This document shows positions 50,313 to 57,664 of a DNA stretch of 64,000 nucleotides, in pieces. How positions within the stretch are numbered: the first letter of the stretch is position 1; each line of letters starts with the position of its first letter. The DNA is from an uncultured Phycisphaerales bacterium (GTDB taxonomy: Bacteria; Planctomycetota; Phycisphaerae; Sedimentisphaerales; Anaerobacaceae): assembly GCA_903857265.1 (NCBI GenBank), contig CAIODZ010000015.1:1-64000 (forward strand), given 5' to 3'. Position numbers and translations under genes: made by a program. The notes beneath the pieces are model-generated. The model was not told the origin of the DNA, searched no databases, and saw nothing but the letters and a program-made list of their open reading frames with translations.

Positions 50313-51797
50313 TCAATAAATCCTGTGTCCTGTTCGTGCAGTATGCTCGATGTTTATGAAGAAATAACGCAGGGCGTCGATTGGGTGGTCATAAACGCCG
50401 TCTTTGAGGGGTAATTCATCGCCGGTCGGCGTATCGGGATAGTGATAGCAGGTCAGGGCCTCTATCAGGCGAGCACATTTAGGCGAGACAATAAATCGAC
50501 TTTTGCCTGCGCCGTCCCGTATCGCCCGGCGGATTGACTCGATGCCCTCTGCGATTCCGCTTCGGCGATAACGAACATTTATTCCAAGTGAGCGCAATTC
50601 ACGAACCGCACTTGTGCCTGTAACATCGTTGGCTCCCGCACCCGCCGGGTCGCAAAAAGTCGCGATAACTCGTGATTCACCGCCAGGGATTCTGGTCTTC
50701 AACTCGGCTGCGTGAACATCGATTGTCGCGCGAGTTCGCACGTACTCATCAATCATCCGCACCACGCCTTCGCTATCAATCTGAATCCATAGGCACACAA
50801 ACGGGTTGGCAAAACCAAAGTCCAGCGAACGATATAAAGGCAAATTCGCATCATATTCGACGGGCCTGACGTGAATAGCGGTATCAAACTGGTCAAAAAC
50901 AACGTTTTCGAGATTGGGTTTGATACACAGCATCTCGGCTTCCCAGCCCGCCCTGCTGCTGCGTCGCATCTGCGTAATGCAGTCGTCAATTTTCAAATAG
51001 CCGACTGCCTGTTTTGCCCTGCCCGCGCAATCGCCCCACAACGGACATTGCGAACAGTTCCTGTCGGCGCATTTTTCGATTGTCTCCCAGATACACCATT
51101 TTAAAACGGGCGTGCCGGTTTTGGCAGCCGACGAAACGATTTTCTGCATAAGGCCGTATGGCTTGTGCATCGTGCTGATTGTTTCCATACCGGCGATAAT
51201 ACTGTCCGTGCTTTGCGTAGTGAATTTCGCGGCGTTGAAAACATCAGGGTCGAAAAGCTCGACCTCATCACAGCGAAGTTTCTGGATGTGCTGACCCCGG
51301 ACGCTCGCCTGCGATTGCGTGAGAACATCTACCGCCGAGCCATTGGCAAATCGGCAGCCGGTTTTCCGCACCGGTTCAGCAAGAAACTTATCGAAGCCAA
51401 GCCGCAGAAAATCGGTGAGATACCGATACATCCTTCCCGCCTGCTCTTCGGAACCCGCCAATATCCGCACCTGGCAATTGGGTTTGAAGACGCAGTCCAA
51501 AAGCGTCGCCACAGCCGCGAGGTCCGTCTTGCCTCCGCCCCGGTTTGCCCAGACAACGCAATCGGCATTGGCAGGTTTGGGATTTGAAAAGTCGCAATTG
51601 AAACCATACCAGAGATAATCTAAAGGACTGCTGTGTTCCGGGCAAATCTGCCTGTCCGGCACATCAATCCCCAAAAAGACCTTGATATAATTTTTCAAAT
51701 CCGCTTTGGTTACCGGCCTTGTTCGCCTTAGCGATTCATACAAGCAGGAAACACTTTGGGTCTGCGCATTTGCCGGCAGAATGATACCGTTAGCCAT
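50313..51797 (-). CDS. Phage terminase large subunit-like protein (ATPase plus nuclease)
   Basis: VVWANRGGGKTDLA (Walker A), LRCDEVELFD (Walker B), SLDFGFANPFVCLW / ATFCDPAG / DHPIDALRYFF (RNase H-like nuclease acidic motifs). Confidence 0.9.
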   Translation of the reverse strand: MANGIILPANAQTQSVSCLYESLRRTRPVTKADLKNYIKVFLGIDVPDRQICPEHSSPLDYLWYGFNCDFSNPKPANADCVVWANRGGGKTDLAAVATLLDCVFKPNCQVRILAGSEEQAGRMYRYLTDFLRLGFDKFLAEPVRKTGCRFANGSAVDVLTQSQASVRGQHIQKLRCDEVELFDPDVFNAAKFTTQSTDSIIAGMETISTMHKPYGLMQKIVSSAAKTGTPVLKWCIWETIEKCADRNCSQCPLWGDCAGRAKQAVGYLKIDDCITQMRRSSRAGWEAEMLCIKPNLENVVFDQFDTAIHVRPVEYDANLPLYRSLDFGFANPFVCLWIQIDSEGVVRMIDEYVRTRATIDVHAAELKTRIPGGESRVIATFCDPAGAGANDVTGTSAVRELRSLGINVRYRRSGIAEGIESIRRAIRDGAGKSRFIVSPKCARLIEALTCYHYPDTPTGDELPLKDGVYDHPIDALRYFFINIEHTARTGHRIY

Positions 51798-51865: not shown

Positions 51866-52300
51866 TTATTCCGCATCGATTTTTTGGATGCGGGTTAGGT
51901 GCCTGCCGCCGTCGAAGGGGGTGTTGAGCCAAAGTTCAACGATTTCCAGCGCCTCTTCAATCGCAATCATCCGCTCGCCCATCGACAGAATATTGGCGTC
52001 GTTATGCGCCCTGCTCAGCCGGGCGGAACGCAAATCCCAGCATAAGGCGCATCGCACGCCCTTGACCCTGTTGGCGACCATCGCTTCGCCGTTGCCTGAG
52101 CCGCCAAGTATGATTCCGCGGTCGTATTTGCCCGCAGCTACGGCCTTTGCCACTGGTCTCATAATATCGGGATAATCGCAGGGCTTTTCCGAATCCGTGC
52201 CGAAATCGTCAACGGTATGCCCCTTTTCGACAAGAAACTTCTTTATGATTTCCTTGTATTTGTAACCCGCCTGGTCTGCGCCAATAGCTATTTTCATCAA
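51866..52300 (-). CDS. rpiB: Ribose-5-phosphate isomerase B
   Basis: IAIGADQAGYKYKEIIKKFL, DYPDIMRPVAKAV, RGIILGGSGNGEAMVANRVKGVRCALCWD. Confidence 0.95.
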   Translation of the reverse strand: MMKIAIGADQAGYKYKEIIKKFLVEKGHTVDDFGTDSEKPCDYPDIMRPVAKAVAAGKYDRGIILGGSGNGEAMVANRVKGVRCALCWDLRSARLSRAHNDANILSMGERMIAIEEALEIVELWLNTPFDGGRHLTRIQKIDAE

Positions 52301-52405
52301 TCGTATCCTTTCCGGTTAATTTATTAGACGGACGATTATAAGGCAAATCGCCCGCCGGCTCAAAAAAAATTACCTCATCCATTTTGGTCTGCTGAAAACA
52401 AAACG

Positions 52406-52624
52406 TATATTTTAACTGGAAGAATGCCCCGCTCTGTTTTGGGAGGGTTCGGCTTGCCTCGCCGAAGGGTGCGGAAACCGACGAAAGCTGCAGCCAAAAA
52501 TAACTGCTGCGGCTTTCCCAAAACAGGGCGGGGTTAATGTTAAAAAGCTTTTAGTAAAGAGAGACGATGCCCTTTTGGAAGAAAGTGAGGGCAAGATATT
52601 TCGGGCCTGCGTCTCTCTTTTTTT
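52406..52624 (+). ncRNA. Candidate structured non-coding RNA: -10-like TATATT, three-way-junction domain, terminal hairpin with T-run
   Basis: 18-bp stem 52427-52444/52516-52533 enclosing hairpins 52448-52466 and 52485-52515; 11-bp stem 52556-52566/52610-52620 followed by T7; the non-Watson-Crick pairs in the outer stem and second hairpin are G.U only on + strand. Confidence 0.5.
52556..52624 (+). terminator. Rho-independent terminator-like hairpin
   Basis: aaagagagacg/cgtctctcttt perfect 11 bp, continuing into a 7-T run. Confidence 0.65.
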
Positions 52625-52737
52625 CGTTTCTCATTGCCCCCCGCCCGATAATCATTCCATTAAAATTTTCCATAAATCGCTCGCAATATTTTTTGTTTTT
52701 GCCTGAAGTTGTCATATACTTTCTACGGAGGAAGTTG

Positions 52738-52800
52738 ATGACGGGACCCGCGGGTCGTGGCACGAGGCCTCAAAAAAAACTAAAATTAAGAAGGCGATAA
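52738..52800 (+). CDS. Candidate 20-aa basic micro-protein MTGPAGRGTRPQKKLKLRRR
   Basis: GGAGG Shine-Dalgarno 6 nt before ATG; TATACT -10-like at 52715-52720; hairpin aagggagac/gtctccctt at 52807-52859 downstream. Confidence 0.35.
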   Translation: MTGPAGRGTRPQKKLKLRRR

Positions 52801-52913
52801 TTGGATAAGGGAGACCGCCCGGCACATTAAATGAGCCAAAAGGAGCGCATGTCTCCCTTCGTTTATTTCACCGGCTGCACGTCACCAATCAGGCCAAAAA
52901 CCTGCGGTGCGCC

Positions 52914-54584
52914 TCACTTATAGCGGTACACTTTGACTTTCTGAATGCTGTAACCGCCCGGCGGAAATCGCAAACCTCTGCCGGAAATAATCTCGTCGCC
53001 GTTAAGTCGTCTCCCGGGTATCCATTTGCCGTCAACGAATGTGCCCTCTTCAACGGTTGCAAAACCAACCATCTCAGCAGGTGTGCTCGTGGAAAACAAA
53101 ACCATCAGACCTTTGCCAACCGCCAGAAATTCATCCGGCCCAGTCGCAATTACAATCCCGGCGGCAACAGGTCCCTCCGTCGGCCCGCTCACCCATCGTC
53201 TCAGTATCCTGAGTTCGAGGGTATAGCCGCCCAACTGCACTTTCTCAACCTGGTTAGGATCATCCATCGCAATTCCCGCGATTGTCCCTTTGGCTTGGCC
53301 TTCTAAAATAAACGGCGCAATCCTGGACAGGACGCTGTAGCATTTGGCAAGTTCGCTGTTTGGTTCCGCTATTCTTTCGATACCGAAGGGCGAGAAGCCC
53401 ATCAAGTTGTGCTGCCCTAAAGCATAAAATATGTTAATTACGCCGTCTTTGTCGCCGCGGGTCTCAGGTATGAAAAGGGGATTGCCCAATCTGCTGTACC
53501 ATTCACAGCGTGCCTTGAAGTCCGGCACATAAAGATCCGGACAAAGCATATCAATATGCGCCGCGCCCGCCTTCCAGATATCCATAACTTCCGCCAGCGG
53601 GCCGCCGCTGGGAAATTCGCCGGGCTGGGGACACCCTTCCTGGTCAAGCCATGCGTTCACGTACATCGGAATCGGATATTCGGCCTTGCCCGCCTCGGCT
53701 ACCTTCTCGATGTAACGCGAGTATTGCCACGCCATAAAAATTTCATCTGTAAATGACGAGCGATTCCGCCAGTCCTTCTCGTGCGGCTTATTGACGCCGA
53801 AAACCTCTTCCCATGTTCCTGAAGTTTTGAATCCGCCGGTCTGCCAGGCATTGTGAATCTCCGGCAGCAGCGTATCTTTGTGTTTTTGAAGATAATCCAT
53901 AAGCTCTTTCGGCACAGGTTTGTTATACGCCTCGTTCGCGGCTTTGCATCTGTCGCGTGAATCGCCGAGAACGCCGGACTCATTTTCCACCTGCATCATT
54001 ATCACGGTATGCTGCTGGCCATCGACTTCTTTGATATGCCGCATCAGCGCCGCAAACGCCTTGGCATCGGCGTCTCTGGAAGCATCGCTGAAAGTAGAGA
54101 GTATTTCGAGGGCATTGCCATCCGCGTTCCGGGCGAACGGGAAACGGGGCAAATCGGTTTTTACCCAGACGGGGACATAAGTTGACACGCCGTTTTTCCA
54201 GCTTCCGAACCAGAGTAACACAAGACGCATATTGTAGCGTCTCGCGTCTTTGATAAGGTCGTCCACCAACGAAAAATCGAATTTGCCTTCTTCCGGCTCT
54301 ATCAAATCCCATGAAACCACAGCCAGAACCGTATTGAGGTTCGCCTCAGCGAGTTTCGGCCATATCGGCTTCATATATTCAGTGCTGGATGAGCTTGAGT
54401 TGTGCAGTTCGCCGGCGAGCATAAGAAACGGCTTGCCGTCCACAATGAGCTGGGTAGCCGCGCCCTGCTTGCTGAGGTGAGGTATGGTATTGTCCTTGTC
54501 GGCTCCGAGGGCCTGCGCAGATAACATGCCCGCAAGAACTAAAACCGCGATTATAACGATGTTAAAATAATTTGCTTTCAACAT
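52914..54584 (-). CDS. Secreted glycoside hydrolase, GH35/DUF5597 beta-galactosidase-like
   Basis: LIVDGKPFLMLAGELHNSSSSS, NTVLAVVSWDLIEPEEGKFDF, MMQVENESGVLGD; start MLKANYFN at 54584 with AGGAG SD. Confidence 0.88.
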   Translation of the reverse strand: MLKANYFNIVIIAVLVLAGMLSAQALGADKDNTIPHLSKQGAATQLIVDGKPFLMLAGELHNSSSSSTEYMKPIWPKLAEANLNTVLAVVSWDLIEPEEGKFDFSLVDDLIKDARRYNMRLVLLWFGSWKNGVSTYVPVWVKTDLPRFPFARNADGNALEILSTFSDASRDADAKAFAALMRHIKEVDGQQHTVIMMQVENESGVLGDSRDRCKAANEAYNKPVPKELMDYLQKHKDTLLPEIHNAWQTGGFKTSGTWEEVFGVNKPHEKDWRNRSSFTDEIFMAWQYSRYIEKVAEAGKAEYPIPMYVNAWLDQEGCPQPGEFPSGGPLAEVMDIWKAGAAHIDMLCPDLYVPDFKARCEWYSRLGNPLFIPETRGDKDGVINIFYALGQHNLMGFSPFGIERIAEPNSELAKCYSVLSRIAPFILEGQAKGTIAGIAMDDPNQVEKVQLGGYTLELRILRRWVSGPTEGPVAAGIVIATGPDEFLAVGKGLMVLFSTSTPAEMVGFATVEEGTFVDGKWIPGRRLNGDEIISGRGLRFPPGGYSIQKVKVYRYK

Positions 54585-54681
54585 AAATTTTCTCCTGACG
54601 TTTTTGTGCTTATTACCGAATCGGTTCAACGCATCAGCCGAATTGTATTTTGCCGCACCTGCCTTTGTCAACTTCATTATA

Positions 54682-55116
54682 TCACTCGCCTGTATTTGCG
54701 GATGCCTTGCTTTCCGCCATCGCCGCCAATAATCTGCTCGCCAGTTCGGGCGGTAAATCGGGCAGCTTTTCGGCTTCGGGTTGCTCTTCTGGGTTGGGCT
54801 CTGCTTTTTGTCGAAGGTAATTAATCACGTCTAAGCAGGCCTTGCGAGACGTTTCCTGGTTCTCCGATTCAGTCAACTGAACCAGTTTAGCCGCGGCCAC
54901 ATTAGCGAATCTCGCGATTATCAGTTCGCCTCGCCTGTGCGCGGATTTGACCCGCCTGTCAAATTCATCCGCGAAATTATCCTCCGCCAGCCATTTATCG
55001 TAAACGCGTTTGTTAATCCTGTGCTTTTCAAAAATCTGCTGCTCTTCAAGCTCCGCCGTGAACAAATCATCAATTACTTCGCGTTGTTTTTTTGTGAGCG
55101 GTTTTACATCCGGCAT
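54682..55116 (-). CDS. HTH protein resembling phage terminase small subunit (phBC6A51-like)
   Basis: LTKKQREVIDDLFTAELEEQQIFEKHRINKRVYDKWLAEDNFADEFDRRV; overlaps ParB-like ORF. Confidence 0.68.
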   Translation of the reverse strand: MPDVKPLTKKQREVIDDLFTAELEEQQIFEKHRINKRVYDKWLAEDNFADEFDRRVKSAHRRGELIIARFANVAAAKLVQLTESENQETSRKACLDVINYLRQKAEPNPEEQPEAEKLPDLPPELASRLLAAMAESKASANTGE

Positions 55117-55769
55117 TTTTCAACCTCCCTTAAATATTGTTCCGCGATTGCAGTAATCGCCCCGGCGCGACGCTGCGCTTTTGTCGTCTCGATACTTGAT
55201 ACTCGATTTTCGATACTCGATATCGCGTTCTCTATAATCTCCTGCTGTTGCTTTGTTACAAAAAACACAAGCGGAACAGCAAATGGCTTATACTGAACGC
55301 TGCTCGCTGTCCGCTGAACGCTGTCTTTCAGCGCGGCCAGTCGTTCAATCTGTTTGGCCGTCTGAGGGAGTAATTTGGCTAATTGGGCTGTCCCCATCCG
55401 CTCCGTAAGCTTTTTCAGCAATTCTACTTTCTTCGCGAGCATATCCGAGCCGGCCAATCTATTCAGCGTCGTCAGCAAAATAGCCGTCTGCTCATCATCC
55501 ACGTCCCAGACAACACAATCCGCTTCCTTACGCCCCAGTTGCTCCAGGGCTTTTACGCGGTGATGGCCATTAATGATTTCAAAGTGGTCTTTCTCTTTGG
55601 GATGAGGCCTGACGACAATCGGCTCATAAAGCCCCGTCCGCTCGATATTGCGAATCAGCTTGCGAAACGTGGAATCACTCATCACGTTCGGATTATCGGG
55701 ATGCGCAGTAAGCTTTGACAACGCTATCGACTCAATCTTGCCTTCATATTTCATTTCTGCGTTCTTCAT
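55104..55769 (-). CDS. ParB N-terminal domain protein
   Basis: IALSKLTAHPDNPNVMSD...GLYEPIVVRPHPKEKDHFEIINGHHRVKALEQLG. Confidence 0.9.
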   Translation of the reverse strand: MKNAEMKYEGKIESIALSKLTAHPDNPNVMSDSTFRKLIRNIERTGLYEPIVVRPHPKEKDHFEIINGHHRVKALEQLGRKEADCVVWDVDDEQTAILLTTLNRLAGSDMLAKKVELLKKLTERMGTAQLAKLLPQTAKQIERLAALKDSVQRTASSVQYKPFAVPLVFFVTKQQQEIIENAISSIENRVSSIETTKAQRRAGAITAIAEQYLREVEKCRM

Positions 55770-55770
55770 T

Positions 55771-56517
55771 CTACACTCTCAATTCCGCTTGTTGGTTTCG
55801 CCAAATGTAATACACGGGCCTGTCGGTTAGTTTATTGAGAACAAATCTTGTGCGTTCGATGCCGGGCTGCATAAGCCGTCTCTGGCCGTAACTCTGAAGG
55901 AATCGCGCCATCTCGCCATCGATAAAATCTGCCCTCTGTCCTCTGTCTTCCGTCCTCAGCTTTTCCAGCTTCTGCTGGACAACCCCCGGGTCGATTAAAT
56001 CCTGCTCATCAACGCCGACCGCACTGAACGCCTCAATCAGCCGAACACAGGACGCGGAAATTGGGGCATCGTACCGCGTCAATCCCGCCTTTTCCAAAAA
56101 CGGGTTCGCTCTGCCCATCACCGCCATCGCCTCGACGAAGGGAACATCCATAATGGGCATTGTTTCTCTGACTAATCGCACCGCAAGCCCCAGCGAGCGA
56201 AACCTCGGCTCGATAATCACCCTGCTTATTGTGCGTATGTTCCTGTTGATGAGCTTTAGACGCGTGCCCTTATCCAGCCCCGCGAAAATCCCGCCCATCG
56301 CGATATTTCGCATCTGCGCCCCAGCCGTCGGCATCGAATAAATAATCACACCTACCGTTTCGAGTTTCATCGCCGTGCGGAATTTGCCCTTCAGCGCAAA
56401 AATCGCCACGCAAGGCCCAGGATGGCTCTCGCGGTAATGATAATGCGAAAGCGATTCGTAATCCGCCCTTGTCCCGGGAACAATTTCGAGATTTCTTATT
56501 ACAGTGCAAGCTTCCAT
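55771..56517 (-). CDS. GNAT-fold acyltransferase-like protein (ABC-ATPase-associated type)
   Basis: ISRVIIEPRFRSLGLAVRLVRETMP (R-x-x-G-x-A acyl-CoA loop), AMAVMGRANPFLEKAGLTRYDAP. Confidence 0.7.
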   Translation of the reverse strand: MEACTVIRNLEIVPGTRADYESLSHYHYRESHPGPCVAIFALKGKFRTAMKLETVGVIIYSMPTAGAQMRNIAMGGIFAGLDKGTRLKLINRNIRTISRVIIEPRFRSLGLAVRLVRETMPIMDVPFVEAMAVMGRANPFLEKAGLTRYDAPISASCVRLIEAFSAVGVDEQDLIDPGVVQQKLEKLRTEDRGQRADFIDGEMARFLQSYGQRRLMQPGIERTRFVLNKLTDRPVYYIWRNQQAELRV

Positions 56518-56575
56518 ATAAATTTAGAATTTAGAATGAAGAATTTAGAAAAGGAAAGTTCCAAATTCCCAATTC

Positions 56576-57232
56576 TCACTTCTTACTTCTCAATTTTTTG
56601 TAACTCACTTCCGCTTCTCCTGAGAAGTTTTTCACCACCAGCACATCCGGCTGCAAATCCGCCAGTATGTCCTCGTGGGCCGACGCGAGGAAAAACGTAA
56701 CGCCGTTATGTTTCGCGAACCTGCGAACGTTATAAGCAATGACGCCCGCGGTGATGCGGTCCAAGTTGCTGCAAAACTCGTCTGCGAATATGAACTTCCT
56801 GCCCGACGCCAGCGCGCAGGCCAGGCGAAAGCGATATTTCTGCCCTTCGCTCAGGTTCGCCGGCACATTCAGCATACAAAACACGTCGCTCAACCCCGCG
56901 TAGCTCAAAAGCGATAATCCGTCAATCGTCCCAGTACCGCCCACGCAGTCAATCGCCGCCCTGTCTGCCGGCAAAGCTATCTGCTCGATGACGATTTTAT
57001 CATCGTCCGCTACCGCCGTTTGCATTTCTCGCAGCAGCACGCTTTTGCCCGCCCCCGATGGCCCGGTTATGTAAACTATGTCCCCATCGTTGACCTCGAC
57101 TGTGCATGCGTGTGTCGTGCGCTGGCCTCTTAGCCGGTCGATTCCCACGCCGAACATCCGCATCACCGTCGTAACTCGCTCGCTTTTTTGCGGATTAATC
57201 TCGAATTGTTTCGCCACAGAAAATTTACGCAT
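56576..57232 (-). CDS. Soluble ABC-type ATPase (no transmembrane partner)
   Basis: ITGPSGAGKSVLLREM Walker A, NLSEGQKYRFRLACAL signature, KFIFADEFCSNLDRITAGVIA Walker B/D-loop. Confidence 0.9.
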   Translation of the reverse strand: MRKFSVAKQFEINPQKSERVTTVMRMFGVGIDRLRGQRTTHACTVEVNDGDIVYITGPSGAGKSVLLREMQTAVADDDKIVIEQIALPADRAAIDCVGGTGTIDGLSLLSYAGLSDVFCMLNVPANLSEGQKYRFRLACALASGRKFIFADEFCSNLDRITAGVIAYNVRRFAKHNGVTFFLASAHEDILADLQPDVLVVKNFSGEAEVSYKKLRSKK

Positions 57233-57235
57233 CGC

Positions 57236-57664
57236 TCAATCCCCCTTTTTCGGCACATTTGTCAGCCGCTGAATTTGTCGCATCGTCTTCCGCACCTCGT
57301 AATACGTCGTTTCGTGCCTATCCGCTATTTCCTTCATTGGCAGCCCGTCCACAAAATAATCTCTCGCCATTCCAATTTGTTCCTGCGTGAATTTGCCGCG
57401 GTTGTGCAGACAAATGATGTATTGCCCGTCAAGAAGCCGGCGAACCAGTTTGTGAATACGCCTCGCGACGTTCGCCTCATTGACGCCCGCCAGCCGCGCC
57501 ATCTGATTTAATGTCCCCGTGCCGTTCAGATACATCTGCACCAGCGCGCCATCTTTGCCCGTCAGCAGCCCCGCCCTGCATCGCAGAAGGTCGATTCTGT
57601 CCGTAGCTTCTGTCTCTTCTCTGCCGATGGGATTAACTTTTTGAAACGCCCTGCTCCTGGCCAT
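57236..57664 (-). CDS. HTH DNA-binding protein (sigma-70 region 4-like, two HTH-like segments)
   Basis: TLNQMARLAGVNEANVARRIHKLVRRLL and FTQEQIGMARDYFVDGLPMKEIADRHETTYYEVRKTMRQI; 3-nt gap to ABC ATPase gene. Confidence 0.7.
   Translation of the reverse strand: MARSRAFQKVNPIGREETEATDRIDLLRCRAGLLTGKDGALVQMYLNGTGTLNQMARLAGVNEANVARRIHKLVRRLLDGQYIICLHNRGKFTQEQIGMARDYFVDGLPMKEIADRHETTYYEVRKTMRQIQRLTNVPKKGD

Follow-up and report, generated by a model that had tools for sequence, protein, structure and literature searches.

What does a compact run of phage-like genes do in the chromosome of a planctomycete of the class Phycisphaerae? The genes in question lie in a 64,000-nucleotide stretch of contig CAIODZ010000015.1 from an uncultured Phycisphaerales bacterium, and we refer to this whole stretch as the window. 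A first-pass annotation had described five minus-strand open reading frames, mostly overlapping or nearly touching, and had suggested that they could form a phage-derived module for DNA modification, marking or packaging selection.

We confirmed all five open reading frames on the minus strand. The first (57236..57664) encodes a 142-aa protein with two helix-turn-helix (HTH) segments and two weak HTH-type matches; it is a probable regulator, and its orthologues stand first in the gene order in most relatives. The second (56576..57232) encodes a soluble ABC ATPase of 218 aa (PF00005, 5e-11; phrog_293, 1.5e-29). As had been claimed from the letters, its motifs are intact and no permease gene adjoins it: Walker A GPSGAGKS (57), the LSEGQ signature (127), Walker B FIFADEF (147) and the H-loop LASAHE (182) are all present. 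The third (55771..56517) encodes a GNAT-fold protein of 248 aa, for which the profile search returned phrog_886 (5.8e-13) and no Pfam match. The alignment of its orthologues contains His27-Tyr28 and the acyl-CoA loop R107-x-x-G110-x-A. This GNAT is the partner of the ABC protein, to which it is fused in other families. Then come a 221-aa protein with a ParB N-terminal domain (55104..55769; PF02195, 4e-10), whose orthologues occur in most loci with the full set, and a 144-aa HTH protein resembling a terminase small subunit (TerS-like, 54682..55116; phrog_2538, 1e-6), whose gene keeps a conserved place in the order among relatives.

The tight junctions reported earlier are real at three of the four boundaries: 3 nt separate HTH from ABC, 1 nt separates GNAT from ParB, and ParB and TerS overlap by 13 nt. 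The exception is the ABC/GNAT boundary of 58 nt, which is filled by a repeat dispersed in the genome of the window. This short AT-rich repeat (56518-56600) has more partial copies elsewhere in the genome. In two same-genus relatives (L039, L040) the ABC/GNAT gap is only about 16 nt.

The first-pass annotation overlooked a sixth member of the cassette. It encodes a complete terminase large subunit and lies downstream in the same orientation (TerL, 494 aa, 50313..51797; PF17289, 7e-8; phrog_2, 2.6e-20). In an alignment of 12 divergent orthologues, K90 and T91, D177 and E178, D326, D383 and D470/D474 are invariant, so that both parts of a terminase, the Walker A/B ATPase and the acidic residues of the RNase H nuclease, are present. 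Between the ATPase and nuclease domains there is a Cys4 insertion (C-x4-C-x2-C-x5-C). The motif, in the form C-x4/5-C-x2-C-x5-C, is common to TerL of Phycisphaerae (L130-L209) and of viral relatives (L210-L246), and it is possibly a zinc or Fe-S site.

Two other genes, both on the minus strand, stand between TerS and TerL in the window. Ribose-5-phosphate isomerase B (RpiB, 51866..52300) is a frequent chromosomal neighbour at this place and is probably outside the cassette functionally. The gene of the GH35 beta-galactosidase family (52914..54677; NF051902) is an inserted passenger. More generally, the gap between TerS and TerL (51866-54677 in the window; L130-L209) is a recurrent insertion spot, in which GH35, sulfatase-like and FAD-type or oxidoreductase-like proteins as well as RpiB are encountered. 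On the 3′ side of TerL, several loci (L140, L148, L149, L167, L171, L187, L192, L198 and L206) carry a gene for an XRE-ImmA-type protein followed by one for a PIN-like protein; judged by eye, they look like a toxin-antitoxin or regulatory pair.

Co-occurrence of the genes in related genomes had been set beforehand as the test that could refute the module. The module passed it: relatives carry these genes in the same order, and the set is therefore not a product of chance. GNAT is present as a single copy in 49 out of 61 relatives (30 out of 33 when only good genomes are counted), with a second or broken match in a few of them. Across the class it was found in 183 of 250 genomes and in 135 of 185 genera, and TerL in 157 of the 250 genomes. 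The order HTH-ABC-GNAT-ParB-TerS-(RpiB)-TerL is kept across the order to which the window belongs (20 neighbourhoods of 20 kb each), with single members absent in some, and these neighbourhoods contain no further widely conserved genes. Contig loci with TerL, from metagenome-assembled genomes labelled Sedimentisphaerales or Phycisphaerae, contain the same set amid housekeeping genes such as AspS.

Selection on these genes is purifying: counting estimates of dN/dS range from 0.04 to 0.27 over the members of the cassette, and for ABC compared with same-genus genomes they are 0.06-0.07. Moreover, TerL distances follow those of ABC (r = 0.76), GNAT (r = 0.74), ParB, TerS and HTH (r 0.64-0.76 overall), while the correlation with the host gene AspS is weaker (r = 0.59, n = 13). 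Purifying selection, co-variation and the invariant TerL residues support a functional, vertically inherited cassette over a decaying prophage. One might still regard the locus as a decaying prophage remnant or a recent phage acquisition, since its genes are clearly phage-derived and passengers have entered between TerS and TerL. This explanation is already contradicted by a single copy in the same order throughout the order and most of the class, by dN/dS well below 1 and by invariant catalytic residues, and no conserved integrase or structural genes surround the cassette in the relatives' neighbourhoods. We consider it highly improbable. The cassette is inherited vertically and outside prophages, as is expected of a gene transfer agent (GTA), and it has neither the sporadic distribution nor the integrase and full structural set of a prophage. 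Its vertical inheritance across the class was missed at first; it is not a local phage remnant.

The proposed phage derivation and link to packaging were borne out, as phages carry the same genes upstream of TerS-TerL-portal. The order of the phage homologues is ParB-ABC-(GNAT)-TerS-TerL-portal. SSU5-type phages, Pseudomonas phage nickie and Rhizobium phage RHph_X66 keep ParB-ABC-(small ORFs)-GNAT together, and in nickie and RHph_X66 a small protein, TerL and portal come next. In streptococcal and Gordonia phages, ParB-ABC is found near the terminase. Identity between the window and these phages is about 33-39% for ABC and 17-21% for GNAT. Within the segment that matched, the nearest viral relatives in IMG/VR share 38-44% identity with the TerL of the window. 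On the IMG/VR contigs (L211-L246) they are mostly encoded in two pieces, with the nuclease ORF upstream of a separate ATPase ORF, and ParB often stands next to them. We found no ABC-GNAT beside these viral TerL relatives, and an IMG/VR scan with GNAT yielded no match. One locus of another family (L296, family f34) reads HTH-ABC/GNAT fusion-ParB-TerS-like-TerL-like-portal-like-scaffold-like, the last four being judged by eye only; it resembles an intact phage late region carrying the cassette.

What the GNAT does is central to any functional reading. Its structural model (m9d52425c0fd2, mean pLDDT 87.8) has a true GNAT fold with a C-terminal helical extension. The nearest solved folds, namely NAT10, Naa50, Naa60, KacT, AtaT and dopamine N-acetyltransferase, are generic GNATs and none is decisive. 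Among viral structural matches there is the Mom protein of phage FSL SP-031, and the conserved His-Tyr at the end of helix 1 aligns with that of Mom. The relationship to Mom that had been considered was nonetheless not borne out. A comparison of the Mom and GNAT alignments gave a probability of 12%, a single-sequence Mom profile 1%, and the pairwise match an E-value of 0.0025. The Mom motifs S-x-x-D and Y-x-A-x-N are not invariant in the GNAT alignment, and only HY is common to both; membership in the Mom family is not supported. As a separate observation, a ParB-like gene overlaps a Mom-like gene in Microbacterium phage Appa (L427), an independent pairing of ParB and GNAT.

The suggestion that ABC and GNAT are a split enzyme of the COG2401 type fared better. 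Fused ABC-GNAT orthologues exist in sister families, and a tblastn search with GNAT matched a protein of phage Cyrano annotated as MK0520-type. The ABC motifs are intact and the GNAT is related to phage MK0520-type / PHROG 886 proteins, but the two are separate genes in the window and fused only in the sister families. Judged by sequence, the pair is a split variant of the COG2401 type and not a strict member. Our literature searches on COG2401 and on the combination of ABC ATPase, ParB and Mom found nothing. For the ABC and GNAT pair, passages of PMC7824862, citing Iyer et al. 2013, give the prediction that it modifies a DNA base with an acyl group of unknown identity.

It could be objected that this GNAT is an ordinary acetyltransferase of proteins, tRNA or metabolites which stands beside a terminase by accident, given the generic character of its closest solved folds and the lack of a significant sequence match to Mom. 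Its fixed pairing or fusion with ABC, the recurrence of ParB and terminase genes near it in phages and several bacterial lineages, and its unusual conserved HY motif and C-terminal helical extension all speak against such a coincidence, which we find unlikely.

Some members of the cassette are less firmly kept than others. ParB was not found beside the cassette in families f4, f10, f16 and f24, and in most of them TerS was not found either. In families f9, f18, f19 and f21 only a fused ABC-GNAT was found, amid unrelated genes and with no TerL adjoining. The fusions without TerL form a single clade and keep both the ABC motifs and the HY motif. The deep branches of the ABC tree, phage proteins included, are not resolved. 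The persistence of fused ABC-GNAT without TerL, together with the loss of TerS or ParB in some families, suggests that ABC-GNAT is useful by itself.

If the cassette packages DNA into a particle, shell genes should be sought in the same genomes. Four portal and capsid families (PF04860, phrog_21, PF25209 and PF05065) have no member near the cassette in the window's locus. In the genome of the window, which is 94% complete, the PF04860 and phrog_21 portals and the PF25209 capsid were not found, and three complete genomes (G039, G044, G048) contain none of the four families. Both portal families and the PF25209 capsid are sporadic in the window's order. Candidates for the shell of the cassette were tried and rejected. 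The HK97 portal PF04860 (5 out of 61 genomes) and capsid PF05065 (10 out of 61) are sporadic and prophage-like. The single PF05065 HK97 capsid of the window genome (G000:C34) sits on a small element that is sited differently in different genomes. The phrog_21 portals of other Phycisphaerae (G072, G085, G181, G196, G062) are prophage-like with long tape measures, and G181 has several copies. The small element itself (L380, which is G000:C34, and L382, L383 and L384) encodes an XRE regulator, a protease-like protein, an HK97 capsid and a tape-measure-like protein; neither a portal nor a terminase occurs within the stretch seen.

These results leave room for a capsid-free repurposing as a host system of DNA modification or processing, possibly a restriction-like one: ABC-GNAT would mark DNA, and TerL would cut or translocate DNA that is unmarked or specific. 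The four portal and capsid families tested are absent from the window's locus and sporadic in relatives, TerS and ParB are dispensable in f10 and f16, and the intact single clade of fusions persists with no TerL adjoining. However, TerL is strongly constrained as a translocating ATPase and not just as a nuclease, single-copy vertical retention on this scale is atypical of restriction or defence systems, and the relatives in phages and in family f43 are tied to packaging.

Family f43 belongs to another planctomycete class. GNAT is present in 38 of its 81 genomes. There, a phrog_9 TerL comes after (ParB-)ABC-GNAT, and a phrog_21 portal is adjacent or lies tens to hundreds of kilobases off. In many genomes the portal or the capsid leads into a conserved gene cluster that includes a PF25209 capsid, a neck protein and a tape measure of 236 aa. 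ABC, GNAT, TerL, portal and capsid are all present in each of the 16 genomes examined, distributed over one to three loci, mostly two or three. The distances of these five proteins correlate with one another (r 0.76-0.91, Mantel p at most 0.0005). Some f43 genomes are drafts, in which a location on different contigs is not proof of distance between loci; the separation is seen directly in the complete or near-complete genomes G295, G354, G382, G429, G432 and G444. In some loci (L346-L364 and L402-L418, e.g. L355:4354-19605) the genes are arranged as ParB-ABC-GNAT-TerL-portal-protease-capsid-neck-tape measure.

Published passages (PMC11841831, PMC9662315) name as genomic hallmarks of GTAs the restriction to packaging and structural genes, scattered loci and co-evolution with the host. 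The f43 pattern fits these hallmarks, and we regard the set as a candidate GTA. Portal, capsid and tail genes occur together with the cassette genes in f43 genomes; in the genome of the window, the four portal and capsid families yielded only the PF05065 capsid of the small element. In addition, the TerL families differ, with phrog_9 as the best match in f43 and phrog_2 in the window, so the GTA reading of the window rests on analogy. Our literature search found no report of a GTA in Planctomycetota.

On balance, we conclude that the five genes and TerL are rather probably a phage late-gene DNA-marking-and-packaging cassette which has been domesticated and is inherited vertically; this judgement concerns the whole and neither of its end uses. 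The domesticated cassette is probably used to mark, cut or package DNA. In the mechanism we propose, ABC and GNAT would form a single machine that acts on DNA: the ATPase would drive or gate the GNAT, and the GNAT would transfer an acyl group to a DNA base. The ParB, HTH and TerS proteins would bind DNA, ABC-GNAT would act in concert with ParB, and TerL would cut and translocate the marked DNA.

As the likeliest use we tentatively put forward the selection and packaging of DNA for a GTA-like particle, the shell genes of which would lie elsewhere and escape recognition. Capsid-free DNA modification or processing, as set out above, follows close behind as a somewhat less favoured possibility, and sequence alone cannot decide between the two. 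A terL that stands apart has a precedent. According to the passages of PMC9662315, shell proteins of the Brachyspira GTA can be without recognisable phage relatives, and a lone conserved terL stands outside its structural cluster; scattering is common among the genes of GTAs (PMC9662315, PMC11841831). By this analogy, a GTA is possible in the window's lineage too, with shell genes too divergent to recognise. A broader idea, that ancient GTAs are spread throughout Planctomycetota, with ABC-GNAT-ParB chemically marking host DNA for a dedicated terminase and with Phycisphaerae shell genes diverged too far, is speculative and strikes us as rather unlikely.

It is unusual that a phage packaging motor and a putative DNA-modifying partner are kept as single copies through most of a bacterial class. 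Two questions become testable here: the effect of ABC-GNAT on DNA and the use of GTAs by Planctomycetota. The candidate GTA of f43, where ABC-GNAT co-varies with portal and capsid at separate loci, offers a concrete experimental entry point. The class-wide domestication and the GTA link are new, and the prediction of DNA acylation by ABC and GNAT was already present in the passages of PMC7824862.

How does the cassette compare with known systems? Phage Mu Mom, a GNAT that modifies DNA adenine, shares the fold and the His-Tyr at the end of helix 1, but there is no significant profile match, S-x-x-D is not conserved here and Mu has no ABC partner. The ABC-GNAT system predicted by Iyer et al. (COG2401-like; PHROG 293 / 886) has the same two components and is found in phages beside ParB and terminase. 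In contrast to it, the components here are two chromosomal genes, vertically inherited class-wide and joined to a conserved TerL; the modification is putative in both. The packaging regions of nickie, RHph_X66 and SSU5-type phages have the same ParB-ABC-GNAT grouping, but they belong to working phages and run on into portal and capsid genes, whereas the window's region does not. The candidate cluster of f43, the GTA status of which is putative, carries structural genes, unlike the window's lineage. RcGTA, BaGTA and BhGTA of Brachyspira also differ from that lineage by their structural genes, which were not found in it, and the literature passages on them do not mention ABC-GNAT-ParB. Like the cassette, all three are phage-derived, vertically inherited and scattered on the chromosome.
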